From the NCBI RefSeq assembly GCF_014190775.1, contig NZ_JACHVP010000001.1, positions 124,001-188,000 on the forward strand: a stretch of 64,000 bases of DNA. The letters run 5' to 3'. The stretch is from Leifsonia aquatica (GTDB lineage: Bacteria > Actinomycetota > Actinomycetes > Actinomycetales > Microbacteriaceae). The translations under genes were made by a program, and so were the position numbers. Shown here piece by piece: positions 1-14,599 of the stretch. The first letter of the stretch is position 1, and each line of letters starts with the position of its first letter. Below the pieces are notes generated by a model that was given only the letters and a program-made list of their open reading frames with translations, had not been told where the DNA came from and made no database searches.

Positions 1-1248
1 CGCCACACCTTCACCGCCCGGGCGGTCAACGCGGTGGGCGAGTCGCTCGACACGACGCCGGTGCTCACCTGGGCCTACCAGCCTCCGGTCATCAGCGGCG
101 GCAGCAGCAGCACCGTCTACGACCCGGCGCGCACGAACGCGACGCAGGGCGTCATCTCGCTGTCGATCCAGTCGAGCGACGACACCAGCGGGTTCCAGAT
201 CAGCATCGACGGCAACCCCGTCGCGCAGATCCCGCGCAGCGGAGCGACGACCACGTGGACGGGGACGGCCTCCCCGGGATCGCGGAACGTCTCGGTCACG
301 CCGGTCAGCCAGTTCCAGCCGCCGCTCGGGTCGGGCAACACCGGCTCGGTGTGGGCGCAGTCGGTGCAGGTCTCGGGCTCGCCGATCGTCACGTCCAACG
401 GGTCCCTCGTCGCGTCGTCGAACACCGCGCTGCAGCTGAAGGACGTCGGGGTGGACGCGAACCACAGCGCCAAGGGCGTCAGCGTCCTCTACGCCGTGTG
501 GCGTGAGGGGTCGCCGCAGCCGTCGTGCTCCATGGACGGCAACGGCAATCCGGTGATGCCGGGCGGTCAGGCGTCGAACAACTTCGGCGGGCTGCAGGAG
601 TACACCAAGTACTTCGGGCAGGCGTGCGCCGCGAACGGGTTCGGCGCGGTCTCGACCGGCGTGCAGCAGGCGTACACCTTCACCGTCTCGCCCGGCGGCC
701 AGGGCGTCACCTACACGGTCGGCGTGGACCCGTCGCGCACGATCACCTCCGGCGCCTTCACCAGCGGCTACGAGTTCCTGAACGTGACCGCCCCGAACGT
801 GCCGCAGCGCAACCTCTTCGGTGTCTTCTACCGCATCAACGGCCAGCTGACCTCGAACTTCTCGCTCTCTCGCGACGTCGACCCGGGTCACATCACGTAC
901 AGCTACTGCTTCCTGAGCAGCACCAGCGCGTGCGGGGCGGAGGCCGACGTGACGTCGACGACCATCCCGACGACGGTCACCGTGAACGTGCCGACCGACT
1001 GCACGGCCGCTCCGACGAAGGACGACATCGTGTTCTCGGGCGCGGTGAAGTCGGCCAATGCGTACACGATCGACATCGCGAACGACACCGCGGCGCTGAC
1101 CGTGAGCTACAAGATCACCTTCACCGGCGCCTACGCGGCGCTCGGCGAACGGACACTGACCCGGTGCGGCGTCGCAGCCCCGACGAACCCGAACCCCGAC
1201 CCGGGGACCGGCGGCGGAGGCGGCTCCGGCGGCGGGACCGGCGGATGA
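1..1248 (+). CDS. C-terminal part of a fibronectin type III / Ig-like surface protein (5' end outside the window)
   Basis: The frame is open from base 1, so this is the last 415 residues of a larger protein; the GTG at 34 is only an internal valine. The first residues (FTARAVNAVGES) look like the closing strand of a fibronectin type III domain. The rest is Ser/Thr/Gly/Val-rich beta-type sequence typical of secreted multi-domain actinobacterial proteins, with a few cysteines, and it ends in a Pro- and Gly-rich tail. No C-terminal membrane segment or sorting signal is visible, so surface attachment is unknown. A MoxR gene follows after 55 bases and the T7SS genes lie further downstream, so a role in the envelope or as a secreted product of this locus is inferred from position only. 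Confidence 0.75.
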   Translation, partial: RHTFTARAVNAVGESLDTTPVLTWAYQPPVISGGSSSTVYDPARTNATQGVISLSIQSSDDTSGFQISIDGNPVAQIPRSGATTTWTGTASPGSRNVSVTPVSQFQPPLGSGNTGSVWAQSVQVSGSPIVTSNGSLVASSNTALQLKDVGVDANHSAKGVSVLYAVWREGSPQPSCSMDGNGNPVMPGGQASNNFGGLQEYTKYFGQACAANGFGAVSTGVQQAYTFTVSPGGQGVTYTVGVDPSRTITSGAFTSGYEFLNVTAPNVPQRNLFGVFYRINGQLTSNFSLSRDVDPGHITYSYCFLSSTSACGAEADVTSTTIPTTVTVNVPTDCTAAPTKDDIVFSGAVKSANAYTIDIANDTAALTVSYKITFTGAYAALGERTLTRCGVAAPTNPNPDPGTGGGGGSGGGTGG

Positions 1249-1303: not shown

Positions 1304-2269
1304 ATGACCATCACCCCCGAACAGACCGCCTGGTTCCAGTCGACCTTCGCCCAGCTCGTGGAGAACGTCGAGCAGGCGGTGCTCGGCAAGCGGCACATCG
1401 TCGAGCTCGTGTTCGCGACCCTCCTGAGCGAGGGCCACATCCTGCTCGAGGACGTCCCCGGCACGGGCAAGACGGCGCTCGCCCGCGCCCTCGGCCAGAC
1501 CATCCGCGGCACGTCGACGCGCATCCAGTTCACCCCCGACCTCCTGCCGGGCGACGTCACCGGCATCACGGTCTACGACCAGAAGCGCGGCGAGTTCGAG
1601 TTCCACACGGGCCCGATCTTCGCCAACGTGGTGCTGGCCGACGAGATCAACCGTGCCAGCCCGAAGACCCAGTCGGCGCTGCTGGAGGTCATGGAGGAGG
1701 GCCGCGTCACCGTCGACGGCGTCACCCGCCCCGTGGGTGTGCCGTTCGTCGTGATCGCGACGCAGAACCCGGTGGAGCAGGCCGGCACCTACCGGCTGCC
1801 CGAGGCGCAGCTCGACCGCTTCATGATCCGCGCGTCCATCGGCTACCCCGACGACGCGTCGACCCTGCGGATCCTGCAGGGCGCGATGCACCCGCGCCGC
1901 GAGGTTCCGGAGATCGTCGACGCCCAGCTGATCGTGACCATGTCCGACCTCGTCGCCGGCGTCTACAGCAGCCCGCTCGTGCTCGACTACATCATGCGGC
2001 TCATCGCGGCCACCCGCCGTGCGAGCGAGGTCAAGCTCGGTGTGAGCGTGCGCGGCGGCCTCGCCCTCGCACGCCTCGCCGCGACCTGGGCCGTCGCCCA
2101 CGGCCGCAGCTTCGTCACCCCCGACGACGTGCGCGACCTGGCCCTCCCGGTGCTCGCGCACCGCCTCGTGCTCAACCCGGACGCGGAGTTCGACGGTGTG
2201 ACCGCCGACGCCGTGATCGGGCAGATCCTGCTGGACGTCGAGGCGCCCGTGGAGAACGGAGCGGCCTGA
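1304..2269 (+). CDS. MoxR family AAA+ ATPase
   Basis: 321 residues, the usual MoxR length. It carries a Walker A motif (PGTGKTALARAL, about residues 51-62), a Walker B segment (VVLADEINRAS, about residues 109-119) and the sensor region QNPVEQAGTYRLPEAQLDRF. MoxR ATPases are cytoplasmic chaperone-like AAA+ proteins, often encoded with DUF58 and vWA proteins and thought to assemble or activate them. The ATG at 1304 follows AAGGAAG at good distance. The DUF58 gene starts five bases after the stop, so the two are almost certainly one transcript. The target protein is not shown by the sequence; the adjacent DUF58 and TgpA-like proteins are the obvious candidates. Confidence 0.93.
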   Translation: MTITPEQTAWFQSTFAQLVENVEQAVLGKRHIVELVFATLLSEGHILLEDVPGTGKTALARALGQTIRGTSTRIQFTPDLLPGDVTGITVYDQKRGEFEFHTGPIFANVVLADEINRASPKTQSALLEVMEEGRVTVDGVTRPVGVPFVVIATQNPVEQAGTYRLPEAQLDRFMIRASIGYPDDASTLRILQGAMHPRREVPEIVDAQLIVTMSDLVAGVYSSPLVLDYIMRLIAATRRASEVKLGVSVRGGLALARLAATWAVAHGRSFVTPDDVRDLALPVLAHRLVLNPDAEFDGVTADAVIGQILLDVEAPVENGAA

Positions 2270-2274
2270 GGCGG

Positions 2275-3648
2275 ATGGCAGAGTACGACGACACCTCCTC
2301 GCGGCTGACGCGCACCGTCACCGGCACGCGCACGCGTGCCTCGACGGTCACGAGCGTCACGAGGAGCAGCACCGGCATCGTCGAGGACGGCGTCTTCTGG
2401 GGCCGTGCGGCCGCGGCGGCCGTCGGCTCGGCGCTGCGCGCCTCCGCGCGCTGGTTGGCGGAGACCGTCACCGCGCCCGGGTGGCTCGTCGTGTGCGTGC
2501 TCATCGCCGGTGCCGTCGCCGGCTGGGTCGCCGGCTGGAGTCTCGGCTGGATCGTCGCCGCGGCCGCCGCGGCGCTGATCGTCGTCTGCGTCCCCTTTCT
2601 CCTCGGCTCGCACGACTACCGGGTGCAGCTCGCCCTCGACCGGGAGCGCGTGGTCGCGGGGGACGACGTCACCGGCAGCCTCGTGGTCCGCAACGCGGGC
2701 AGCAGGGCGTCGCTGCCCGGGCGCGTGGACGTGCCCATCGGCACCGGCCTCGCGGAGGCCTACGTGCCGCTGCTCGCCGCCGGCGCCGAGCACACCGAGC
2801 GTCTGTCGATCGCGGCTGCTCGACGCGGTGTCATCGACGTCGGCCCGGTCTCCGTGTCCCGCGGCGACCCGATCGGGCTGCTGCGGCGGGAGGCGCTCTG
2901 GCCCGAGGTCCACACGCTCCACGTGCATCCGGTGACCGCGCTCATCCCCGGCACGAGTGCCGGACTCATCCGCGACCTCGAGGGTCTCCCCACCAGCACG
3001 ATCGTCGACGCCGATCTCGCGTTCCACGCCATCCGCGACTATGTCCCCGGCGACTCCCGCCGTCACGTCCACTGGAAGTCGACGGCGAAGACCGGACGCC
3101 TGATGGTGCGGCAGTACGAGGAGGCGCGGCACTCGCGCATCGCCGTGACCATCGGCATCACGGCCGAGGAGGAGTACGAGTCGGACGACGAGTTCGAGCT
3201 CGCCGTCAGCGTCGCGGCGTCGCTCAGCCTGCAGGCCGTGCGCGACGGCCGCGATCTGGTCGTGACCACGAGCGCCGAGCGCCCGGAGCTGGTGCGCGGC
3301 GAGGTCGTGACCATCCGCACGCTGCCGACCCGCAACGCCGCCGCCATGCTCGACGGCTTCTCGGAGATCGAGCTGGCCGAGCGCGCCAGCCGCCTCGAAG
3401 ACGTCGCGAAGCTCACCGCCCAGTCGAACCCGAACCTCTCGGTCGTGTTCCTGGTCACGGGCGCGCACACCCCGCTCGGCCGGTTGCGCGGCGCCTCGAT
3501 CGCGTTCGGGCCGGACACGCAGTGCGTCGCGGTCCGCTGCGAGCTCGGCGCGGACCCGGCGTTCCGCCGCTTCGGTCCGATGAGCGTCCTGACCGTCGGC
3601 GCTCTCGACGACCTCGGCAAGCTGATCGCCCGCGGAGCCCTGCAGTGA
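2275..3648 (+). CDS. DUF58 domain membrane protein
   Basis: 457 residues. After a Thr/Arg/Ser-rich cytoplasmic start come two hydrophobic segments (about residues 75-115), then a beta-rich region and the DUF58 core, recognisable from RDYVPGDSRRHVHWKSTAKTGRLMVRQYEE (split: RDYVPGDSRRHVHW then KSTAKTGRLMVRQYEE), about residues 253-282. DUF58 proteins are companions of MoxR ATPases and resemble vWA folds; their biochemical role is not settled. Its stop overlaps the GTG start of the TgpA-like gene (GTGA), so translation of the two is coupled. The MoxR-DUF58-TgpA trio is a known conserved arrangement; its placement directly before FHA/PP2C and T7SS genes is what stands out here. Confidence 0.9.
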   Translation: MAEYDDTSSRLTRTVTGTRTRASTVTSVTRSSTGIVEDGVFWGRAAAAAVGSALRASARWLAETVTAPGWLVVCVLIAGAVAGWVAGWSLGWIVAAAAAALIVVCVPFLLGSHDYRVQLALDRERVVAGDDVTGSLVVRNAGSRASLPGRVDVPIGTGLAEAYVPLLAAGAEHTERLSIAAARRGVIDVGPVSVSRGDPIGLLRREALWPEVHTLHVHPVTALIPGTSAGLIRDLEGLPTSTIVDADLAFHAIRDYVPGDSRRHVHWKSTAKTGRLMVRQYEEARHSRIAVTIGITAEEEYESDDEFELAVSVAASLSLQAVRDGRDLVVTTSAERPELVRGEVVTIRTLPTRNAAAMLDGFSEIELAERASRLEDVAKLTAQSNPNLSVVFLVTGAHTPLGRLRGASIAFGPDTQCVAVRCELGADPAFRRFGPMSVLTVGALDDLGKLIARGALQ

Positions 3649-6188
3649 GCGCCCCGGTGGCAGGCGACGGAGCGCGGGCGGCAGCGCGCCGGGCCCGCAG
3701 ACAGCGCGCGGCCGCACTCCGGCCGGACGTGCCGCAGACGATCCTCGCCGTCGCCTACGTGCTGGTCGGCCTCGCGCTCGCCTGCGCCCTCGCGTGGCCG
3801 CTATACGAGACGCCGCGGCTCATCGCGGTCGCCGCCTACGCTGGTGTCGTCGGCGTCGGCACGGCCGTCGTGGCGCGGCTGCGACGCTGGCCCGCGTGGC
3901 TGCACATCGTCGTCGTGGCCGGCCTCTATCTGGTCGGCGTGGTGCCCCTCGCCGTGCCGTCGGCGCTGTCCTCGCCCCTCGGCGTGCTGCGCGGCCTCCT
4001 CGACGGGCTGACCGGCATCGTCCTGGGCTGGAAGCAGCTGCTCACCCTCGACCTGCCGGTCGGCCAGTACCAGGCGGTGCTGGTCCCGGTCTATGCGCTG
4101 TTGCTGATCGGCTCCGCGATCGCCGCGGCTCTGGCACTCTCGCCCGAGCGCCGGGCGGCTGCAGCCGTCCCGGTCGTCCTCGGGATGGGCGTCTTCGGCA
4201 TCGCGTTCGGGGCCACGGACCCCGGCGCCCCGTTCCTGCTGCTGGGCATCCGCATCGATGCGCCCCGGGAGGTGCTGCTCGGCCTGCTCCTGGTCGCGGC
4301 CTCCCTCGTCTGGCTGACACTGCGCGCTCAGCTGCGCCGTCGCGCCGCCCTCGCCGCCGCGCGCGGAACGGTCGGCGTGGTGCGCCAGGGTTCGGCCTCC
4401 GCAGGTGCCGCGGTCCGTCGCCGTCTGCTGGGCGCCGGACTCCTGATCGTCGCCCTGGCTGCGGGTCTGACCGCCGGGCCCGCACTCGCCGGCACGAGCA
4501 CGCGAGAGACGCTGCGCACCTCGACGGAGCCGCTGCTGGTCGTCCAGCAGCAGACCACGCCGCTCGGCCGCTACCGCGCGTCGTTCGAGAAGGACGCGTA
4601 CGACCGTGAGCTCTTCTCGGTCACGGGTGCGGGATCCGGCGTCGACCGGCTGCGGCTGGCCACCCTGGACGACTGGGACGGCGAGCACTTCCTCGTCTCG
4701 GGCGACACCCGCTTCTCGCGCCTGCCCGGCGGTTCGCCCGCGCCCGGCGCGCGGACCCTGACCGTCACCATCGGCGACGGGTACTCGGGGATCTGGCTGC
4801 CCATGCCGGCCGACACCCGCACGTCGCCCACGTTCAGTGGTCCGCGCGCCGCGGCGCTGACCGACGCCTTCTACCTCGACAAGCAGACCGGCGCCGGCAT
4901 CGACACCACACCGGGCACCGACGGGGCGCGCGGCGTACGCAGCGGTGACAGCTACGAGGTGCAGGGGACCGGCACCCCGGCCGTCCCGCTGGCGGACCCC
5001 GGCACCAGCAGCCTCGTCGACCTGAAGGCGCACCCCGAGCTCGCGGCGTGGCTGGAGGCCCAGGGGCAGCCCCGCACCGCCGACGGATTCGAGGAGCTCA
5101 TCTCCCGATTGCGCGACCGCGGCTACCTCAGCCACTCGCTCGCGGAGGACGACCAGGCGGCCAGCTGGATCGCCGCGCTGCGCAGCCAGTCCGCCTACCC
5201 GTTTGAGTCGAGCTTCGCCGGCCACTCCACCGCCCGGATCGAGGCCCTCTTCAGCCAGCTGCTCGAGCAGCAGAACCGGGTCGGGAGCGCGTCGAGCGCG
5301 GACCTGCTGGTGTCGGGAGTCGGCGACGACGAACAGTTCGCGGCAGCGGGCGCTCTGCTCGCGCGGGCGGTGGGCTACGAGTCCCGCGTCGTCGTCGGGG
5401 TGCGCATGGGCACGGGCGAGACGGGCGGCGTACCGAACTGCTCGGGCACGTGCACGGGAGCCAACCTGGCCGCGTGGATCGAGGTGCGTGCTCCCGGGTC
5501 GGGGGAGTGGACGACCGTCGACGTCGAGCCGCAGTTCAAGAAGGCTCCAACGCTCATCTCCCTCGACCACCAGTTGCCCAAGAACCCGACCGTCCCCGAG
5601 CAGCCGCAGGTCGGCACGGTGCTGCCGCCGGCCGCTCAGCACGACGACCGGGACGCGACCCGCGCCGTGGTGCAGGAGCAGCCCGAGTGGGTGACCGTGC
5701 TCCTGCGGGTGCTGACGATCATCGGCCTCGCCGTGGCGACGCTCCTGCTGCTGACGCTGCCGTTCCTGGTGCTCCTCATCGCGAAGCGGATGCGGCGTGG
5801 CCGCCGCCGTCACGCCCCCGTACCCGAGGTCGCCGTCGTGGGCGCCTGGGCCGAGCTGATCGACGCCCGGACCGACGGCGGGGATCCGGCGCTGCCGGGC
5901 ACGCGCCGCGATGTCGCGGCCGCGATCGGTTCTCCCGCCGCTATCGAGCTCGCCGCGCTCACGGACATCGCCGTGTTCGCCGAACATCCACCCACCCGGG
6001 AGGCGGCGGAGCGCGCCTGGGAGCTCCTCGACACCGAGCGCGCGCGTCTGCGCGCCGAGCGCGGACCGGTCCGGTCGCTGCTCGCCGCGATCAACCCCGC
6101 CTCCTTCGTGCGTGCCCTCGGACGCCCGCGTCTGCGACTCTCCTGGCGACTGCTCGCGGCGCCCCGAACCCGGAAGGCGAGCGCATGA
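3645..6188 (+). CDS. TgpA-like transglutaminase-domain membrane protein lacking the catalytic Cys and His
   Basis: 847 residues from the GTG at 3645, which overlaps the DUF58 stop. The frame is open further upstream only as a shadow of DUF58. The N-terminal half has about seven membrane segments (residues 25-265), then an extracytoplasmic region with a transglutaminase-like core (about 540-630), another membrane segment (about 680-710) and a cytoplasmic tail, as in TgpA (DUF3488) proteins. The usual core reads G-x-C-E-x-F-A, HAW and D; here the matching positions are GDDEQFA (Asp562 for Cys), AAWIEV (Ala610 for His) and Asp626 kept. The fold seems present but transamidation or protease chemistry should be absent, so a structural or ligand-binding role is inferred. 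ATGA coupling leads into the FHA gene. Confidence 0.85.
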   Translation: MSAPVAGDGARAAARRARRQRAAALRPDVPQTILAVAYVLVGLALACALAWPLYETPRLIAVAAYAGVVGVGTAVVARLRRWPAWLHIVVVAGLYLVGVVPLAVPSALSSPLGVLRGLLDGLTGIVLGWKQLLTLDLPVGQYQAVLVPVYALLLIGSAIAAALALSPERRAAAAVPVVLGMGVFGIAFGATDPGAPFLLLGIRIDAPREVLLGLLLVAASLVWLTLRAQLRRRAALAAARGTVGVVRQGSASAGAAVRRRLLGAGLLIVALAAGLTAGPALAGTSTRETLRTSTEPLLVVQQQTTPLGRYRASFEKDAYDRELFSVTGAGSGVDRLRLATLDDWDGEHFLVSGDTRFSRLPGGSPAPGARTLTVTIGDGYSGIWLPMPADTRTSPTFSGPRAAALTDAFYLDKQTGAGIDTTPGTDGARGVRSGDSYEVQGTGTPAVPLADPGTSSLVDLKAHPELAAWLEAQGQPRTADGFEELISRLRDRGYLSHSLAEDDQAASWIAALRSQSAYPFESSFAGHSTARIEALFSQLLEQQNRVGSASSADLLVSGVGDDEQFAAAGALLARAVGYESRVVVGVRMGTGETGGVPNCSGTCTGANLAAWIEVRAPGSGEWTTVDVEPQFKKAPTLISLDHQLPKNPTVPEQPQVGTVLPPAAQHDDRDATRAVVQEQPEWVTVLLRVLTIIGLAVATLLLLTLPFLVLLIAKRMRRGRRRHAPVPEVAVVGAWAELIDARTDGGDPALPGTRRDVAAAIGSPAAIELAALTDIAVFAEHPPTREAAERAWELLDTERARLRAERGPVRSLLAAINPASFVRALGRPRLRLSWRLLAAPRTRKASA

Positions 6189-7285
6189 CCGACAGCACCG
6201 CCACCCTCGTCGCCCTCTCGCTCATCGCGGGGCTCGTCGGCCTGATCATCGGGCTCGCGATCTTCCTCTGGTACGCCGCCGCGCTCTCCCGGGTGTTCGC
6301 CCGGCGCGGCGTGGAGCCGTGGCGCGCCTGGGTGCCCGTGCTCAACGAGGCCGAGATCCTGCGACTGGGAGGGCGCCCCGCGTGGACGGTCGTGTTCTTT
6401 CTCATCCCCGTCGTCTGCGTCTATGCGATCGTCCTGCGCGCCCTGGCCGCCGACCGGATCGGTCGCACCTTCGGCCGCGGAGCGGGCTCCACGGTGCTGG
6501 CCGTCCTGCTGCCGCCGGTCTGGGCGACCGTGCTGGCGTCGACCCGGGAGCCGGCCGCGACCGAGGAGCGTGCGCCCGCCCGGATCACGGAGCCGGAGCC
6601 GGAGCCGGTGCCGGAACCGGCGGTGGAGTTCGTCGCCGTGGCGACGATCGCGGAGCCTCCTGTCGCCGTCGTCCCGCCGGTCCCCATCGCGCCGCCGGTT
6701 GGCGCGGAGCCGCTGGACGCCATCGCGCCGCCTGCGGAACCCGTCGCCGACCTCCCGCCGATCCGCACCCCGTTCATGGACGCGCCGGCCGAGCCTCCGG
6801 CGCCGGAATCGCCCGAGCCCGAGCCGGAGTCGGCGCTCGAGCCCGAGCCGGAGTCGGCGCTCGAGCCCGTGGCAGTGCCCGAGCCCGTCTCCGTCGAGGA
6901 GAGCGTCGACATCGACGACGACGCGGCGGAGACGATCGTGGTCGAGCGCCCGGCCGTCGTCAGCTGGACCCTCGTCACCGACGACGGACGTCGCCACCCG
7001 CTGGAGGCCGACGTGGTCGTCCTGGGCCGCCGTCCGGCGGGGGAGGAGCCCGGCGTCCAGTACCTCGCCGTGCCCGACACCTCGCGCACCCTCTCGAAGC
7101 AGCACGCGTGTCTGACCCGGGAGGGGGACGGCTGGATCGTCACCGACCTCCAGTCCACGAACGGCGTGTTCCTCGACCTCGGCGGCGTCGAACGGCAGCT
7201 CGCGCCGGGCGACTCCGCCCCCGTCTCCGGACGGCTCCTACTGGGGACCGTCGGTCTGCACATCGAACGAGAGGACCGCCGATGA
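6185..7285 (+). CDS. Membrane-anchored FHA domain protein with a pThr-type switch motif
   Basis: 366 residues starting at the ATG that overlaps the previous stop. The N-terminus has three hydrophobic segments with WRAWVPVLNEAEILRLGG, like a DUF5684-type membrane region. A long Pro/Glu linker follows (about 125-245), containing an exact 24-bp tandem duplication. The FHA domain occupies about residues 275-350, with the hallmark pieces LGRRP, SRTLSKQHACL and DLQSTNGVF, so the Arg, Ser-x-x-His and Asn residues that grip phosphothreonine are present. Just before it, Thr250 sits in AAETIVVERP, the same motif repeated nine times in the protein two genes downstream. In GarA and OdhI an N-terminal phosphothreonine is bound by the protein's own FHA domain; the same switch is inferred here. 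ATGA overlap with the PP2C gene. Confidence 0.9.
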   Translation: MTDSTATLVALSLIAGLVGLIIGLAIFLWYAAALSRVFARRGVEPWRAWVPVLNEAEILRLGGRPAWTVVFFLIPVVCVYAIVLRALAADRIGRTFGRGAGSTVLAVLLPPVWATVLASTREPAATEERAPARITEPEPEPVPEPAVEFVAVATIAEPPVAVVPPVPIAPPVGAEPLDAIAPPAEPVADLPPIRTPFMDAPAEPPAPESPEPEPESALEPEPESALEPVAVPEPVSVEESVDIDDDAAETIVVERPAVVSWTLVTDDGRRHPLEADVVVLGRRPAGEEPGVQYLAVPDTSRTLSKQHACLTREGDGWIVTDLQSTNGVFLDLGGVERQLAPGDSAPVSGRLLLGTVGLHIEREDRR

Positions 7286-8097
7286 CAGCCGTCGTCTCCG
7301 GCGTGCAGCTGAGCGCCGACGCCCGCAGCGATGTGGGGCGCCGCCGGGCGGCGAACGAGGACTCCTGCCTCGCGATCGCACCGGTGTTCGCGGTGGCCGA
7401 CGGAATGGGCGGCCACGAGGCGGGCGCGCAGGCCAGTGCCGAGGTGGTCGGTGCCCTCCGCGACACACTGTGCATCGGCGGCCCCGTCGATCTGATGCAG
7501 GTGTCGACGGCGATCGACGAGGCCTCCCGTCGCACGGCTGCGCTGGCCGCAACGACCGCGCGGGGCGCCGGGAGCACACTCAGCGGCGTCATCCTGGTCG
7601 TGCACGAGGGGCGACCGCACTGGCTCATCGTCAACGTCGGCGACTCGCGGGTGTACCGCCTCATCGGCGGCTTCCTGGAGCAGTTGACCGTCGACCACTC
7701 GCTGGTGCAGGAGCGGATCGATGCGGGGGTGCTGCGCGACGACGAACGGGCGACGGCGCCCGACAAGAACGTGATCACGCGGGCCCTCGGTTCTGTGGAC
7801 GCACGCGCGGACAGCTGGCTCATGCCCGTGACCACGGGTGAGCGCCTATTGGTCTGCTCCGACGGTCTGCACGGCGAGCTCAGCGACGAGCAATTGCGCG
7901 AGATCCTCGTCGCGGGAGGCCGTCCCTCGGCCACGACGGCGGCACTGATCCAGGCGGCGAACCGCGCCGGAGGCCGCGACAACGTCACCGCAGTCGTCGT
8001 TGACGTGCTCGCGGGCGGCGACCCGGGTACCGCCGGTCCGGCCGACACCCGCGAGCCTTCCGAGTGGACCGACGATGGAGACACGGTGCCGGTATGA
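7282..8097 (+). CDS. PP2C-family Ser/Thr protein phosphatase
   Basis: 271 residues. All PP2C metal-binding motifs are present: RRAANEDS at the start, VADGMGGHEAG (about residues 33-43), VGDSRVYRL, CSDGL and GGRDNVT near the end. It lacks membrane segments, so it is a soluble cytoplasmic PstP/Stp-type enzyme that removes phosphate from Ser/Thr using Mn or Mg. It starts inside the stop of the FHA gene and its stop overlaps the start of the nine-threonine repeat protein (both ATGA), so reader, eraser and probable target are made from one coupled message. The matching kinase is not in the window and could lie upstream or elsewhere. Confidence 0.95.
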   Translation: MTAVVSGVQLSADARSDVGRRRAANEDSCLAIAPVFAVADGMGGHEAGAQASAEVVGALRDTLCIGGPVDLMQVSTAIDEASRRTAALAATTARGAGSTLSGVILVVHEGRPHWLIVNVGDSRVYRLIGGFLEQLTVDHSLVQERIDAGVLRDDERATAPDKNVITRALGSVDARADSWLMPVTTGERLLVCSDGLHGELSDEQLREILVAGGRPSATTAALIQAANRAGGRDNVTAVVVDVLAGGDPGTAGPADTREPSEWTDDGDTVPV

Positions 8098-9158
8098 GTC
8101 GCGACGACGAGCAGCAGGTGGACGAGTTCGGCGAACTGGACGAGCTAGACGCGCTGGACGAGCTCGACGAGACCATCATCGTCCGACGCGCGGACCCCGA
8201 GCCGAACCCGCTGGACGAGACCGTCGTGGTGCACCGGCCGGAGCCGGTGGACGAGACGGTGGTCGTAGAGCGCCGTGCCGCAGAGCCGGAGCCGGAGCCG
8301 GAGCCGGAACCGGAGCCGGAGCCGGAGCCGATCGACGAGACGGTCGTGGTCCAGCGCGCCGTCCCGGCACCGGAGCCCGAGCCCGAACCCGAACCCCTGG
8401 ACGAGACCGTCGTCGTGCGCCGGGTCTCGCCTCCCACCGAATCCGCTCCCGAGCAGGGCGCAACGGTCGCGCCGGTCGACCCGCCCGTCGTTCCCCGGCT
8501 CGCCGTCGCGTCGGCGCCATCAGCACCCGTGCCGGCACCAGAGCACGAGCCCCAGCCCGAGCTCCAGCCCGCGCCCGAGCCCGAGCCGCAGCCCGACCCG
8601 GAGCTCGACGACACGATCGTCACCCCACGTCCGCTGACCGACCCGGAGCTCGACGCGACTCGCGTGGTGCATCGCGAGGAGGGCGACGAGGTCGAGGCGA
8701 CCCGTGTCGTCCACCGTCCCGACGACGACGCGGAGACGCCGGTCGACGACTCCGACGACACGGTCATCGCCCGCCGTGCCGCCGGCACCGGCGCAGCCGG
8801 ATCGGAGGCGCCGGTCGTCCCGCCACGGACGCCCCTCCCGCGCACACGGCGCTCGCTCCGGGCCCAGCGCACGCCGATCGTGCTTCCGACCAGTGTGTCG
8901 CCGTCCATCCGCGCCGCCGAGGCGGTCGGGGCGAACGCGGTCGACACCTACGAGCCGCGTCCCATCCCTGCGCCGCCGGCTCCCGGCCCCGACCTCGGCT
9001 CGGGGCCCGACGCCACCCGCGCGGAAGCGCCGTCGATGAGCTCGGTGCGCCATTCCAGCCGGAGGGCCGGGTGGATCACCGTCGCGGGGATCGCCGGCGC
9101 CTGCGTCGTCTCGATCGGCGGCCTGATCGGGATCGCGGCCGTCGTCTTCGGCGGCTAA
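8094..9158 (+). CDS. Tail-anchored protein with nine acidic-Thr repeat motifs (candidate phosphothreonine scaffold)
   Basis: 354 residues, family not recognised. The first two thirds are Glu/Pro/Asp-rich and presumably unfolded. They contain nine motifs of the form (D/E)-(E/D/A)-T-x-(V/I)-x-x-R: DETIIVRR (Thr27), DETVVVHR (43), DETVVVER (55), DETVVVQR (83), DETVVVRR (105), DDTIVTPR (174), DATRVVHR (189), EATRVVHR (203) and DDTVIARR (223). Between them is an eight-fold Glu-Pro repeat. The end has a single hydrophobic segment (about 330-352) with basic residues before it, giving a tail-anchored topology with the repeats in the cytoplasm. The motif resembles the phosphorylated ETT-type sites of GarA/OdhI that FHA domains bind. 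The neighbouring FHA and PP2C genes support a multi-site scaffold; the function is inferred. Its stop overlaps the mycosin stop tail to tail (9155-9158). Confidence 0.85.
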   Translation: MSRDDEQQVDEFGELDELDALDELDETIIVRRADPEPNPLDETVVVHRPEPVDETVVVERRAAEPEPEPEPEPEPEPEPIDETVVVQRAVPAPEPEPEPEPLDETVVVRRVSPPTESAPEQGATVAPVDPPVVPRLAVASAPSAPVPAPEHEPQPELQPAPEPEPQPDPELDDTIVTPRPLTDPELDATRVVHREEGDEVEATRVVHRPDDDAETPVDDSDDTVIARRAAGTGAAGSEAPVVPPRTPLPRTRRSLRAQRTPIVLPTSVSPSIRAAEAVGANAVDTYEPRPIPAPPAPGPDLGSGPDATRAEAPSMSSVRHSSRRAGWITVAGIAGACVVSIGGLIGIAAVVFGG

Positions 9159-10468
9159 GACTCCGTCGTCGCTGCGGCCCGTCTCCGGCGCGCGAAGAGG
9201 ATGCTCAGCGCGGCGATGGCGGCCAGCAGGCTGCCACCGACGACCGAGATCGCCACCGCGATGGCCGACTGCCGAGCCTGGCTGTCGTCGTTCGCCCGTA
9301 CGCTGACCGCCCCGGCCGTCGCCGTGTCGTCCGCGGGCGTCGGGCCCGACGTGAAGGGATTGGGCGGTCCGGCCGTCTCAGCGCCGGGGACGAGCACCAT
9401 CGCCTCGTACGGCTGCACCACGCCCCACCCGGACTGGTCGTCGCGGGTGCCGGGGTGCGGGCGGATGGCGCTCGCGGTGAGACGGTACGCCCACTGAGCC
9501 GGCGTCTCGTCGGGATGCGCGGAGGCGACCAGCGCCGCGGCCGCCGCGACGTACGCGGTGGCGAAGCTGGTCGCCGGTGCGCTGGACGCGTACACGCAGT
9601 CCCCGCCGGTGTTCGCGGCCGTCAGGACGTTCTGGCCGGGGGCGCTCAGCGCGACGTGCGCACCGTGGATGCTGTCGTCGGTCACGACGCCGCTCGCCCC
9701 GGTCGCGGCGACGCCGAGGACGCCCGGGTAGCCGGCGGGATAGCGCACGCCGTCCTGCTGGTCCTTCTCCACTGCGAGGGAGGAGTCGCGGTTCCCCGCG
9801 CTGGCGACGACGAGACTGCCGTGCGCGGTCGCGTACGCCACCGCGTCGCGGAGGGCGGGATCGTCGACCGCGGTCGAGAGGGAGACGTTGATCACCTGGG
9901 CGTGGGCGTCCGCCGCGAAGCGGATGCCCGCAGCGAGACGGGAGATGCTGGGACCGGTGCCGGCAGCGACGGCCTGGTCGTCGGTGCCGGCGAAGACGCG
10001 CACGGACAGGATGCGCGCGTCGGGGGCGAGACCCTCCACCCCGGAGCCGTCCACGGTCTGCGCCGCGATCTCACCCGCGATGGCCGTGCCGTGCCCGTAG
10101 CCGTCCGCGTAGCCGGCCGAGCCGACCCCGTCGCCGACCAGATCGGTGCCTCCCGCGAGGACCCCGGACAGGTGCGGGTTCGCCGCATCCACTCCCGAGT
10201 CGACCACGGCGACAACGACGCCGGCGCCCCGCGTGACATCCCACGCGGAGGGTGCCTGGAGCTGGTTCAGCGCCGGAGGGCGCTGGGGGATGAGCGTCGC
10301 GGCGTCGGTGCAGCCGGTGTCGGCCGCGACGACGACCGAGGGGACGGAGGCGCCGCGCGCGACCGTGGCGCCGGGAGCGACCAGCGCGGCAGCCGGGGCC
10401 GAGCTGAGCAGCACAGCGACCGCCCCCGCGAGTCCCGCGACCGCGAACCGACCGCGAGGGCGGGTCAT
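9155..10468 (-). CDS. mycP: Mycosin-type S8 serine protease of the T7SS
   Basis: 437 residues with a signal peptide (MTRPRGRFAVAG onward), a subtilisin-type catalytic domain and a C-terminal membrane segment followed by an Arg-rich tail, the standard mycosin layout. The triad is visible as Asp90 (VVAVVDSGVD), His126 (GYGHGTAIAGE) and Ser301 (APATSFATAYVA), with the oxyanion Asn226 (VASAGNRD). Mycosins sit on the outer face of the membrane and are needed for stability and activity of the ESX machine. The start is the ATG that overlaps the eccB stop (ATGA, 10465-10468). The gene is last in the eccD-eccB-mycP operon. Confidence 0.93.
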   Translation of the reverse strand: MTRPRGRFAVAGLAGAVAVLLSSAPAAALVAPGATVARGASVPSVVVAADTGCTDAATLIPQRPPALNQLQAPSAWDVTRGAGVVVAVVDSGVDAANPHLSGVLAGGTDLVGDGVGSAGYADGYGHGTAIAGEIAAQTVDGSGVEGLAPDARILSVRVFAGTDDQAVAAGTGPSISRLAAGIRFAADAHAQVINVSLSTAVDDPALRDAVAYATAHGSLVVASAGNRDSSLAVEKDQQDGVRYPAGYPGVLGVAATGASGVVTDDSIHGAHVALSAPGQNVLTAANTGGDCVYASSAPATSFATAYVAAAAALVASAHPDETPAQWAYRLTASAIRPHPGTRDDQSGWGVVQPYEAMVLVPGAETAGPPNPFTSGPTPADDTATAGAVSVRANDDSQARQSAIAVAISVVGGSLLAAIAALSILFARRRRAAATTES

Positions 10469-11811
10469 CCGGCCGACGCGGTCGAGGTCGCCCCCGCGGC
10501 GGACGTGCTCAGTTCGGGGCCGCTCTTCAGCAGTGCCACCCAGCTCTGCTCGATCGTGCCGACGTCGTCGGGAGCGTAGCCGAGTCGTTTGACGGTCTCG
10601 TCGTCGGCTCCCGGCAGGGCGAAGGCCGTGCCCGTCGCGTCGACCAGGGTGAGCATCCCGGCGCTTCCGCTGCCGCGTCCCGCCGCATCCACGAGGGCGC
10701 CGTGGCCGGCCTGCACCGTGACGCCGGCTGTGGCCGTGCGCGACGACGGCGCCGTCGCGAGCACCGTGCGGGTTCCGCCGGAGTCCGCAGACAGCAGCGC
10801 GCAGGCGCGATCGCCCGAGGTGATCGAGGTGAAGCCGTCGGCGGGCCAGTCCGCACCGCCGGCGGGGGCCTTGGCGGTGTGCAGGCTCGCGACCGCCGAG
10901 GCGGAGACGTCGCGCACGGCCGTCATCGTCCGGCCGGAGCCGAGCTGGTAGAGCTGCCAGGCCAACGGGCTGAGCGTGGCGAGCGCACCGTCTGGCTGCA
11001 CGACGAAGCGCTGCTCGGCCGGGCTGCCCGAGGTGTGGACGACCTCTCCGACCAGCAGGGGCCCGTCGTCGAGCGCGCCGCCGGCGACCGGTGTCCCCGC
11101 GTCCGTGATGACGAGCGGCTCCAGCGGGGCGCCGGGCGAGAACAGGTTGAGCCAGTCCGACGAGACGCGGACCGGTGCGAGGGAGTCGATGCCGGCGGCG
11201 CGCAGCACGGCGTCGGCGTTCTCCCCGTCCACCCGGTAGCGCAGCCCGTCGGCGACGACCCAGCGGTCGCCGCCGTTCTCGACGACGACGGCGCGCGAGG
11301 TCGCGGTGGCGGCGGGGCGCGTGGCGATGGTCGTGGCGATGCCCGCGTCGTCGGTGACGCAGGCCGTCCAGCCGGTGTTCACGAGAGCGTCCGCGGCGGG
11401 GAGCGCGTCCGGAGCCCCGACGATCCCGACCGGGTCGGACACCTTGATGCCGGAGAGGGCGTGCGAGTCGGTCGTGATGACGGCGAAGCTGGAGGACGGG
11501 ATGAGGAGCCGGGCGCTCGCCGTGTTGATGACCGGGTGCAGCACGCCTTTGACGGAGACGTAGCGCGCGCCCGTGTCCTTGGCGATGACCATGCGGCCGT
11601 TCTGCCAGCCTTGTGGCAGGCCGGGCTGGATCAAGCCGTAGAACGCGCCGGCGAGGAGCACGGCCGCGGTCAGCACGACGGCGATGACGACCGCACGCAG
11701 CGGGCGGGCGGGCTCGAGCTCCTTGCCACCCGGCGCACCGCTGACGAAGGCCGTGAGCAGCCGTCGGCGCGAGAAGTTCTGGGCCTCGATGAGGTCGGTC
11801 TTGCTCGCCAC
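10465..11811 (-). CDS. eccB: Type VII secretion protein EccB
   Basis: 448 residues from a GTG start three bases after the eccD stop. A short cytoplasmic N-terminus containing EAQNFSRRRLLTAFVSG, the conserved EccB opening, is followed by one membrane helix (about residues 40-62) and a large extracytoplasmic domain of repeated beta segments with GDRWVVADGLRYRV-type units. EccB is part of the inner-membrane ESX core complex with EccC, EccD and EccE. No clear Shine-Dalgarno is seen, so expression probably depends on translation through from eccD. The C-terminus is Ala/Ser/Thr-rich. Confidence 0.93.
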   Translation of the reverse strand: MASKTDLIEAQNFSRRRLLTAFVSGAPGGKELEPARPLRAVVIAVVLTAAVLLAGAFYGLIQPGLPQGWQNGRMVIAKDTGARYVSVKGVLHPVINTASARLLIPSSSFAVITTDSHALSGIKVSDPVGIVGAPDALPAADALVNTGWTACVTDDAGIATTIATRPAATATSRAVVVENGGDRWVVADGLRYRVDGENADAVLRAAGIDSLAPVRVSSDWLNLFSPGAPLEPLVITDAGTPVAGGALDDGPLLVGEVVHTSGSPAEQRFVVQPDGALATLSPLAWQLYQLGSGRTMTAVRDVSASAVASLHTAKAPAGGADWPADGFTSITSGDRACALLSADSGGTRTVLATAPSSRTATAGVTVQAGHGALVDAAGRGSGSAGMLTLVDATGTAFALPGADDETVKRLGYAPDDVGTIEQSWVALLKSGPELSTSAAGATSTASAG

Positions 11812-11814
11812 CGA

Positions 11815-13155
11815 TCAGGCCAGTCCGGCCGCGATGACGCCGATCGGGAGCAGCAGAGCCAGGACGACCACCTCGGCGGTGTCCGCCAGCCGGCCGAGCC
11901 GGACGCGCACGCGCGGGTCGAGCAGCGTGACGACGATCGTGATGACCGTCACACCGCCGAGGACCGCGAGCAGGGCGGGGATGAGCGCGGGCTGGGCGAC
12001 CGCCACCGTGAGCCCGGTGGCGTCGATCCCGGCCGTCCCGAGCGCCATGAGGGTCAGCACGTTGCTGCGCGAGTAGCTCTGCCGGGCGGGGAACATCAAG
12101 CCGAGGAACGCCAGCGCGCAGAGGACGGCGCCGAGCGGTGTCGCCCCCGCGACGACCGGCGTCGAGGCCAGCACCGAGAGGCCGAGCGCGAGGCGGAGCG
12201 CGACGAGGGCGCGGTGGCCGGCCGCGGCGCGGCGGCGCACGTCCTCCGCGTCGATCGGCGCGGGAGTCGCGAACACCTCGCTGTCGCTCTGCGGGCTGAT
12301 CACCCGGAGCCGGGTCGAGCTGAGCGCGAGCCAGGGGAGAGCGTTGGCCAGCGTGGCGACGATGGCGACCGTGAGCGAGTACGCGGCGGTCTGAGCGTCC
12401 GGGATCAGGCCGGTGATCACGGCGGGGATGCCGACGGCGGCTCCTGCGGCGACGGGGACGAGCTGGAGCTCGGGACGATAGGGGGTCAGCGCGAGCGCAG
12501 CACCGCCGACGACCACGGCGCCGAGACCGGCGGCGGCGAGGGGCCAGCCCCAGAGGGACTCTCCGCCCGGGACGGCGAGGTAGCCGCTGACGGCGCCGAA
12601 CGCGGCGGCCGCGAGCCCGAGGCCGCAGCCCGCCTCCGGCTGTCCGACGCGCGACAGGACGGCGGAGGTGGTGAGGAGGAGCACGGCGCCGCAGATCGCG
12701 ACGATCAGGCCGATCGCGAGCGAGTTCCCCGCGGCGACCAGCAGCACGGCGCAGACGGCGAGCATCGTGAGGCTCACCGCGAGAGCGGTGCGGGTGTTGT
12801 CCGCGGCCGTCCACGGACGGTGCTGCTCGGCGGTGGCGTCGAGCACCGCCTCCACGATGTCGTCGTAGACGAGCGGCTCGGCGAGCAGAGCTCCTCGGGC
12901 CAGCGTGAGCAGCTCGCCCTCCTGGATGCCCTGGTCGAGCGCGCCGCGGCTCGGATCGACCGTGCTGCCGTCGGCGCGCTGCAAGGTGTATCCGACGTGC
13001 GTCATTGTCGGGTCGAGCACCCCGAGGCTGCGGGCGAAGCCCGGCATCAGCTCGATGAGCGGGAGGTGCGCGGGGACGCCGACGTCGAGTCGTCTGCCTT
13101 CGCTCTGGACCGAGATGCGCAGGAGCGCCCGAAGTGTGCTGACGGATTGACTCAC
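11815..13155 (-). CDS. eccD: Type VII secretion integral membrane protein EccD
   Basis: 446 residues. The N-terminal ~80 residues match the ubiquitin-like (YukD) domain of EccD (LRISVQSEGRRLDVGVPAHLPL, split: LRISVQSEGRR / LDVGVPAHLPL), followed by about eleven membrane helices. EccD forms the membrane pore vestibule of the ESX core. I chose the GTG at 13155 because AGGGGGAGG lies ten bases before it (13166-13174). An in-frame GTG at 13203 would add a Gly/Thr-rich extension and would be leaderless after TAGGAT (13212-13217). An 11-bp hairpin lies in the leader between that -10 box and the ribosome site. First gene of the eccD-eccB-mycP operon, divergent from the WXG100 genes. Confidence 0.92.
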   Translation of the reverse strand: MSQSVSTLRALLRISVQSEGRRLDVGVPAHLPLIELMPGFARSLGVLDPTMTHVGYTLQRADGSTVDPSRGALDQGIQEGELLTLARGALLAEPLVYDDIVEAVLDATAEQHRPWTAADNTRTALAVSLTMLAVCAVLLVAAGNSLAIGLIVAICGAVLLLTTSAVLSRVGQPEAGCGLGLAAAAFGAVSGYLAVPGGESLWGWPLAAAGLGAVVVGGAALALTPYRPELQLVPVAAGAAVGIPAVITGLIPDAQTAAYSLTVAIVATLANALPWLALSSTRLRVISPQSDSEVFATPAPIDAEDVRRRAAAGHRALVALRLALGLSVLASTPVVAGATPLGAVLCALAFLGLMFPARQSYSRSNVLTLMALGTAGIDATGLTVAVAQPALIPALLAVLGGVTVITIVVTLLDPRVRVRLGRLADTAEVVVLALLLPIGVIAAGLA

Positions 13156-13165
13156 CCGGTCCGTG

Positions 13166-13174
13166 CCTCCCCCT
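13166..13174 (-). promoter_or_regulatory. Strong ribosome binding site deciding the eccD start
   Basis: On the minus strand this reads AGGGGGAGG, ten bases before the GTG at 13155. It favours that start over the longer in-frame GTG at 13203. Confidence 0.65.
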
Positions 13175-13180
13175 GTAATC

Positions 13181-13206
13181 GGCGTGGCGGTGCCGACCGC
13201 CACGCC
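13181..13206 (-). promoter_or_regulatory. Leader hairpin before eccD
   Basis: GGCGTGGCGGT (13181-13191) and ACCGCCACGCC (13196-13206) form a perfect 11-bp stem with a four-base loop. On the eccD message it would lie directly upstream of the Shine-Dalgarno at 13166-13174 and downstream of the -10-like TAGGAT (13212-13217). It could modulate translation or mRNA stability; the regulator, if any, is unknown. Confidence 0.55.
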
Positions 13207-14131: not shown

Positions 14132-14599
14132 ATGACCAGTTCTGCGAAGAAGGTCGGAGTGGACGGCGAGACCGTCCTCGACCACGCCAAGCGGATCGAT
14201 GCGGCGACCGTCGCCGATGCTCCGAAGCTCGTCACCGAGTACCAGGTCGGCGGCAGCTCGGGCGGCTCGGCCGAGCCCGCTCTCGCGGGGTTCGTCGCCC
14301 AGCTCGGCAACACGCTCGACACGATCGCGGCCAACGCCACGCTGCTCAACAAGACGGTCGCCTCGAACACCGACGCCCTGCGCGACGCGGTGAAGACCCT
14401 GAACGCAGCCGACGACCAGGCGAAGGCGGACGCGCAGACGCTCCAGGCCGTGATCGACGACCAGCCGAAGCCGAAGGCCAAGGCGGCCGCACCGGCGACG
14501 CCGGCGGCCCCGGCGGCCCCCGCTGCGCCGGCGACGAGCGTCGACGGACAGAGCGCCGCCGAGTTCTTCCAGTCGAAGCAAGGCGGCCAGCACGGCTGA
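14132..14599 (+). CDS. Small helical protein of the T7SS cluster, no WXG motif
   Basis: 155 residues, family not recognised. The ATG at 14132 follows a strong GAGGAGGGGAGGG stretch. Residues 1-110 look helical with spaced hydrophobics (FVAQLGNTLDTIAANATLLNKTV is split as FVAQLGNTLDTIAANA / TLLNKTV), like many ESX-associated proteins. A Lys/Ala/Pro linker (about 112-135) and a short end (SAAEFFQSKQGGQHG) follow. There is no signal peptide or membrane segment. Its position as third gene after two WXG100 genes suggests a chaperone, a secreted partner or an LXG-like substrate; which of these cannot be decided from sequence. Confidence 0.75.
   Translation: MTSSAKKVGVDGETVLDHAKRIDAATVADAPKLVTEYQVGGSSGGSAEPALAGFVAQLGNTLDTIAANATLLNKTVASNTDALRDAVKTLNAADDQAKADAQTLQAVIDDQPKPKAKAAAPATPAAPAAPAAPATSVDGQSAAEFFQSKQGGQHG

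Follow-up and report, generated by a model that had tools for sequence, protein, structure and literature searches.

The protein that we analysed here, which is encoded in a stretch of 64,000 nt of the 4.4 Mb Leifsonia aquatica genome (GCF_014190775.1, contig NZ_JACHVP010000001.1, positions 124,001-188,000; hereafter the window), is most plausibly a tail-anchored phospho-threonine docking array that gathers the FHA-domain protein FHA2 around a PFNA-type machine, with a PP2C phosphatase reversing this state. It carries many near-identical Thr sites that match the site in FHA2's own linker, and because of this match we see in it a probable docking platform with many sites, serving the kinase, phosphatase and reader that are encoded with it.

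The array gene is the last of a long row of genes on one strand. Upstream of the window, an RDD/FHA protein, EccC, a Ser/Thr kinase and an Ig/cadherin-like protein are encoded in this order, and within the window the row continues with MoxR, DUF58, a transglutaminase-like protein, FHA2, PP2C and the array (Table 1). The big protein of 2010 aa matches bacterial Ig and cadherin-like models in Pfam, not FN3. A first-pass annotation of this DNA had described an FHA reader and a PP2C eraser directly upstream of the array gene, joined by ATGA overlaps; Pfam confirms both proteins, and both overlaps are present in the sequence (FHA2/PP2C at 7282-7285, PP2C/array at 8094-8097). It had also let the T7SS core follow the array. 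MycP, EccB and EccD are indeed confirmed there by Pfam, but they lie on the opposite strand and run towards the array gene, so that they are not downstream genes of the same operon. The putative writer missing from that set is the kinase of the same gene row. No Pfam family matches the 155-aa product of a gene further along in the window (14132-14599, + strand), which comes after two WXG100 genes.

Table 1. Features of the array locus in L. aquatica. Positions refer to the window unless preceded by L010.
Feature	Position	Strand	Remarks
EccC	L010 1978-5946	+	before the kinase gene, outside the window
Ser/Thr kinase gene	L010 6083-7219	+	before the Ig-like gene, outside the window
Bacterial Ig/cadherin-like protein, 3' end	1..1248	+	2010 aa; begins at L010 7216, before the window
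MoxR AAA+ ATPase	1304..2269	+	Pfam PF07726
DUF58 protein	2275..3648	+	Pfam PF01882
Transglutaminase-like protein (tgm type)	3645..6188	+	Pfam PF01841
FHA2	6185..7285	+	366 aa; N-terminal DUF5684 region PF18936, C-terminal FHA PF00498
Cis motif copy in FHA2 linker	6923..6952	+	residues 247-256 AAETIVVERP, Thr250, just before the FHA domain
PP2C phosphatase	7282..8097	+	Pfam PF13672; NCBIfam NF033484 below cut-off
Array gene	8094..9158	+	354 aa, nine [DE]xTx(V/I)xxR motifs, C-terminal membrane anchor at residues 333-351
Nine-motif stretch	8166..8777	+	residues 25-228 of the array protein
MycP (subtilase family)	9155-10468	-	Pfam; convergent with the array gene
EccB	10465-11811	-	Pfam; convergent with the array gene
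EccD	11815-13203	-	Pfam; convergent with the array gene

Nine motifs had been counted in the array protein by the first-pass annotation, and the strict pattern [DE].T.[VI]..R returns exactly these, with Thr 27, 43, 55, 83, 105, 174, 189, 203 and 223 at their centre. When the whole protein was shuffled 20,000 times, the mean was 0.057 strict motifs and the maximum 2, compared with 9 in the array, and 20,000 shuffles of residues 1-235 gave at most 3. The codons of the motif threonines are mixed (ACC 4, ACG 4, ACT 1) and the flanking codons vary too, so the repeats are not fresh copies at the DNA level. An origin of the repeats by chance or slippage was considered and is ruled out by the shuffles, the mixed Thr codons and the conservation described below. 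Residues 1-235 are high in Pro, Glu, Val and Asp, and the anchor is the sole strong hydrophobic segment of the protein with 3 residues remaining after it, in agreement with the Glu/Pro-rich region and the single C-terminal membrane helix annotated before. The motif stretch is probably cytosolic. The protein has no family match in Pfam or in NCBIfam and occupies a single place in the L. aquatica genome. The strict motif is absent from the other 15 cluster proteins; this pattern misses the copy in the FHA2 linker, where residue -2 is Ala.

Used as a query, the whole array protein has a low reach, with matches in 16/150 genomes of the family including L. aquatica, several of them through low-complexity sequence only, and arrays in relatives were therefore located by synteny. 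The 79 loci compared derive from a profile scan with FHA2, in which 80 of 207 confirmed candidates were taken; their titles are mostly Microbacteriaceae and they are mutually related. A PP2C gene defines a set of 42/79 loci. L115 was excluded from the array set, the frame picked there being a different protein, and the 52 array sequences include nine Microbacterium loci without a recognised PP2C. Ten relatives were furthermore picked from the 15 other genomes matched by the whole-protein search.

The co-occurrence of the motif gene with FHA and PP2C genes, one of the checks suggested by the first-pass annotation, is found throughout the PP2C set: in all 42 loci, the first gene behind FHA2 and PP2C whose product ends in a membrane helix contains at least one strict motif, rising to at least two in 39/42 and at least three in 34/42, and a rule blind to the motif chooses the identical gene in 42/42. 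Homologues without the conserved Thr, which would have spoken against the proposal of that annotation, are not what the relatives show, as judged by the residue X at the central position of a tight context, [DE]xX(V/I)(V/I)(V/I/A/L/M/T)x(R/K). Within the arrays of the 42 loci X is Thr in 114/116 cases and never Ser, and within all 52 array sequences it is Thr in 122/124; the looser context [DE]xXx(V/I)xxR gives Thr in 170/194 cases with Ser in 1 and Val in 6. The other open frames of the loci have Thr in 37/84 tight contexts, some of which are expected to be FHA2 linkers. Unlike the motif sites, the C-terminal part of the array proteins has Thr and Ser near parity (6.2% and 5.5%). FHA domains favour pThr over pSer.

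A second strong hydrophobic segment occurs in 0/52 array proteins, the tail behind the helix has a median of 3 and a maximum of 12 residues, and at least two Lys/Arg precede the helix, the C-terminal helix itself having been a selection rule for 51/52 of these proteins. With the looser motif rule, the number of motifs per array ranges from 1 to 9 across 51 loci. The nine Microbacterium loci in which no PP2C was recognised have weaker arrays, three of them with 0 strict motifs, and more distant forms comprise DDSTVLSSRR-type repeats in L169 and a short two-site form in L164. L033 has an array with no recognised PP2C and only an FHA-type match directly before it.

The reader carries the same site. 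Among the 70 loci with a readable FHA2 linker (9 loci were left out, mostly owing to cuts at contig ends, and L071 fell under the coverage rule despite a visible linker Thr), the linker Thr is found in 64, 63 by pattern and L097 by eye, and these include all 42 PP2C loci. Around the six FHA2 genes that lack it (L039, L042, L043, L047, L058 and L069), the sequence read shows neither PP2C nor MoxR. Array and linker agree in the consensus [DE]-x-T-V-V-V-x-R, and the array motifs are closer to the linker of their own locus than permuted ones, with 0/5000 permutations reaching the observed value both for 50 loci and for 25 loci taken one per group, a test that is confounded by descent because the relatives are not independent. 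Some lineages have an FHA2 with linker Thr and no adjacent array, for instance at loci beside rpsL. There, linker-Thr FHA2-type genes lie directly upstream of the S12 gene (L045, L078, L091, L098, L102, L103, L104 and L112), and S7 and EF-G come next where the contig continues, S12, S7 and EF-G being recognised by eye. Linkers with two tandem Thr motifs were seen in Microbacterium (L049, L052, L054, L055), those of L049 being VDKTVVTPRP and LDATVVVARK.

For the C-terminal domain of FHA2, AlphaFold2 and matches in the PDB both indicate the FHA fold. Residues G57, R58, S80, H83 and N102 (construct numbering), which we take to be the pThr-binding residues, are invariant in 37 sequences. The linker site is modelled at low confidence (mean pLDDT 63, residues 21-30), which neither supports nor excludes its docking. 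A sequence search of the PDB with the FHA stretch from the window alone matched CEP170 only, while the FHA profile matched 20 sequences including GarA, OdhI and TB39.8, GarA and OdhI not being at the top. FHA2 scores 17.0 bits against the OdhI family model NF041660 (cut-off 200) and 29.5 against the FhaB model NF049868 (cut-off 125), and thus lies outside both families. From the hydrophobic segments of its DUF5684 region, identified by eye, FHA2 appears to be a membrane protein.

Eraser and writer are likewise retained. A Thr site in the PP2C tail is found by a loose pattern in 39/42 loci, and by eye TT(I/V)PVR was seen near the PP2C end in 26/42; the PP2C in the window ends in ...DDGDTVPV, a degenerate form of the relatives' TT(I/V)PVR. 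A kinase with 58-69% identity to that of L. aquatica and adjoining the FN3/Ig gene is present in 10/10 relatives, and the kinase of one further relative shows 53% identity. PP2C was recognised in 9/10 of these relatives and T7SS genes are adjacent in 4/10. The kinase too appears to be a membrane protein, its hydrophobic segment, as judged by eye, forming the extreme C-terminus.

These components suggest the following mechanism. The co-encoded kinase would phosphorylate the array threonines as well as the linker threonine of FHA2, whose FHA domain could then bind either its own linker pThr in a closed, GarA/OdhI-like state or a pThr of the array in an open and clustered one; competition between array and cis site is to be expected, since the two kinds of site are near-identical. 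Through several such contacts the array would gather several FHA2 molecules around the Ig/FN3 protein, MoxR, DUF58 and the transglutaminase, and it may have an effect on MoxR, DUF58 and the transglutaminase. As FHA2 and the kinase both appear to be membrane proteins, the array would cluster them laterally within the membrane rather than recruit them to it. PP2C would reverse the phosphorylated state, and FHA2 might in turn recruit this phosphatase through the Thr site that its tail has in most relatives; where T7SS genes adjoin, as they do here, the cluster may act on secretion too. The full form of this scheme, in which a separate tail-anchored protein has acquired many copies of the reader's switch site, the kinase shifts FHA2 from a self-bound state into a membrane cluster and the phosphatase is brought in via its tail site, is a tentative proposal that we hold with considerably more reserve than the docking role as such.

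The first-pass annotation had proposed a candidate phospho-scaffold of the T7SS. Its core idea of a membrane-tethered multi-Thr array beside FHA and PP2C genes gains from the retained threonines, from the matching site in the FHA2 linker and from the kinase gene of the same row, whereas the T7SS link came out weaker. MycP/EccB/EccD are adjacent in 15/42 array loci, as convergent neighbours here, with EccC in one more (L046), all within the few kilobases read, and among the nine Microbacterium loci two (L090, L101) have an EccC match alongside. The array is not confined to genomes with EccB and EccD: among 41 array genomes (completeness not given; L083 left out), 19 are without EccB, 18 without EccD and 17 without both. 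Given this adjacency in 15/42 loci and the absence of both proteins from 17/41 genomes, T7SS genes are to be regarded, as far as gene content tells, as frequent neighbours and the T7SSa core not as the defining partner of the array; the kinase, the Ig/FN3 protein, MoxR, DUF58, the transglutaminase, FHA2 and PP2C accompany it more steadily. We discarded the view that a T7SS is altogether missing from the array genomes lacking EccB/EccD, as all 17 have matches to a divergent EccC-like ATPase and to WXG100, with the proviso that FtsK-type proteins also match EccC and that the weakest EccC-like match (G170) is uncertain. EccC-like frames of ~1500 aa, distant from the EccC of the present locus and located in genomes without EccB and EccD, were noted at L176 10837-15339 (-), L178 9926-14470 (-) and L177 7431-11984 (+), and these frames apparently represent a second T7SS type within this group. 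In L182 (1034-13904, +), a further MoxR-DUF58-TGM set lies directly beside an EccC-like gene; the array cluster of that genome is more than 500 kb away.

A specific phospho-scaffold of the T7SS, extended to T7SS types without EccB and EccD, could draw on these neighbourhoods, on the EccC gene just upstream of the L. aquatica kinase and the EccC-like frame ~3 kb upstream of the kinase in L107's genome (L176), which is itself without EccB and EccD, and on eight FHA2 genes without PP2C that sit beside T7SS genes; moreover, the available text of PMC11217815 already describes T7SS types with kinase, phosphatase and FHA. We nevertheless consider it rather unlikely, given the 17 genomes without EccB and EccD, the absence of EccC within the 6.8-13.7 kb upstream of the kinase read in ten relatives, the distance of more than 1 Mb between the EccC-like gene and the array in L081's genome, and the missing linker Thr in 5/8 of those T7SS-adjacent FHA2 genes.

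The near-identity of array and linker sites would also suit a competitive pThr sponge that mainly diverts FHA2 from its linker or from other partners, or keeps kinase and phosphatase occupied, with no cluster being formed. We judge this to be unlikely and slightly more so than the T7SS reading, since an FHA2 that is apparently a membrane protein, by eye, would be clustered by the binding of several copies as well. That the repeats are not phospho-sites at all and serve as short β or linear motifs that contact a different partner, Thr being kept for packing, or as a Pro/Glu spacer, strikes us as improbable by some distance: V-rich repeats could pair as strands, but Thr is not swapped for Ser and rarely for anything in the tight context, FHA2 has the same site ahead of its FHA domain and PP2C a related one in its tail, and the array gene is accompanied by those for kinase, phosphatase and FHA protein. 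The docking array that gathers FHA2 thus remains our preferred reading. To our knowledge, the known bacterial kinase/FHA switches rest on one or two threonines, and a conserved array repeating the reader's switch site would offer a clear example of multi-site phospho-scaffolding in bacteria. It would provide a wiring diagram of writer, eraser, reader and array for the PFNA-type gene set, which is poorly understood, and for the T7SS found in this group, together with a short peptide motif that can be tested directly.

In the titles and abstract beginnings of open-licence literature we found no published description of such a pThr array. The gene row itself has a relative in the PFNA operon of Bifidobacterium, for which the available part of PMC8430577 gives pkb2, fn3, aaa-atp, duf58 and tgm, to which some species add prpC, an unknown seventh gene and fha. 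The L. aquatica row keeps the order kinase, FN3/Ig, MoxR, DUF58 and TGM, as do 10/10 relatives, and differs in the order of the FHA and PP2C genes from what is described there. We rejected the notion that the seventh bifidobacterial gene is this array on the strength of one PFNA-like locus, L156 (family f4). Between its PP2C and FHA genes, probably the position of this seventh gene, a different repeat protein is encoded (8052-8663, -), whose repeated units contain NP (ENPEFGANVAVNP and similar); the FHA gene of L156 carries the linker site DWDSTVLSS. L157, a second PFNA-like locus, shows no clear gene after TGM.

In GarA and OdhI, as far as the accessible text of PMC2784874 and PMC12321487 goes, the N-terminus, once phosphorylated, docks onto the FHA domain of the same protein, and FHA2 shares with them a Thr motif N-terminal to the FHA domain. 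The first-pass annotation had likened the array motif to their sites, which agrees with the OdhI site VET14T15SVFR, where, counted from Thr14, an acidic residue at -1, Val at +3 and Arg at +5 take the same places as in the array motif (PMC2784874, in part). FHA2 differs by its DUF5684 region and by the separate tail-anchored protein that offers many site copies in trans. T7SSd and T7SSe comprise a kinase, an FHA protein, a PPM phosphatase (T7SSe) and the large Ig-like TsdI, and their TsdH/TseK, which combine one helix with a short cytoplasmic stretch that is unstructured, resemble the array in this description (PMC11217815, in part). DUF58 is not named in the main text of that source, nor are repeated Thr motifs in its section 9.

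The Pfam scan of 17 cluster proteins turned up no T6SS gene. Within the parts of the literature consulted, the closest worked-out mechanism we found is the T6SS threonine phosphorylation pathway of PpkA and Fha, in which Fha binds the kinase-dependent pThr of TssL Thr14 (PMC3953482). It shares with the proposed docking array a pThr on a membrane protein that is read by an FHA domain, and differs in that a single site on a T6SS core component takes the place of a multi-site array.
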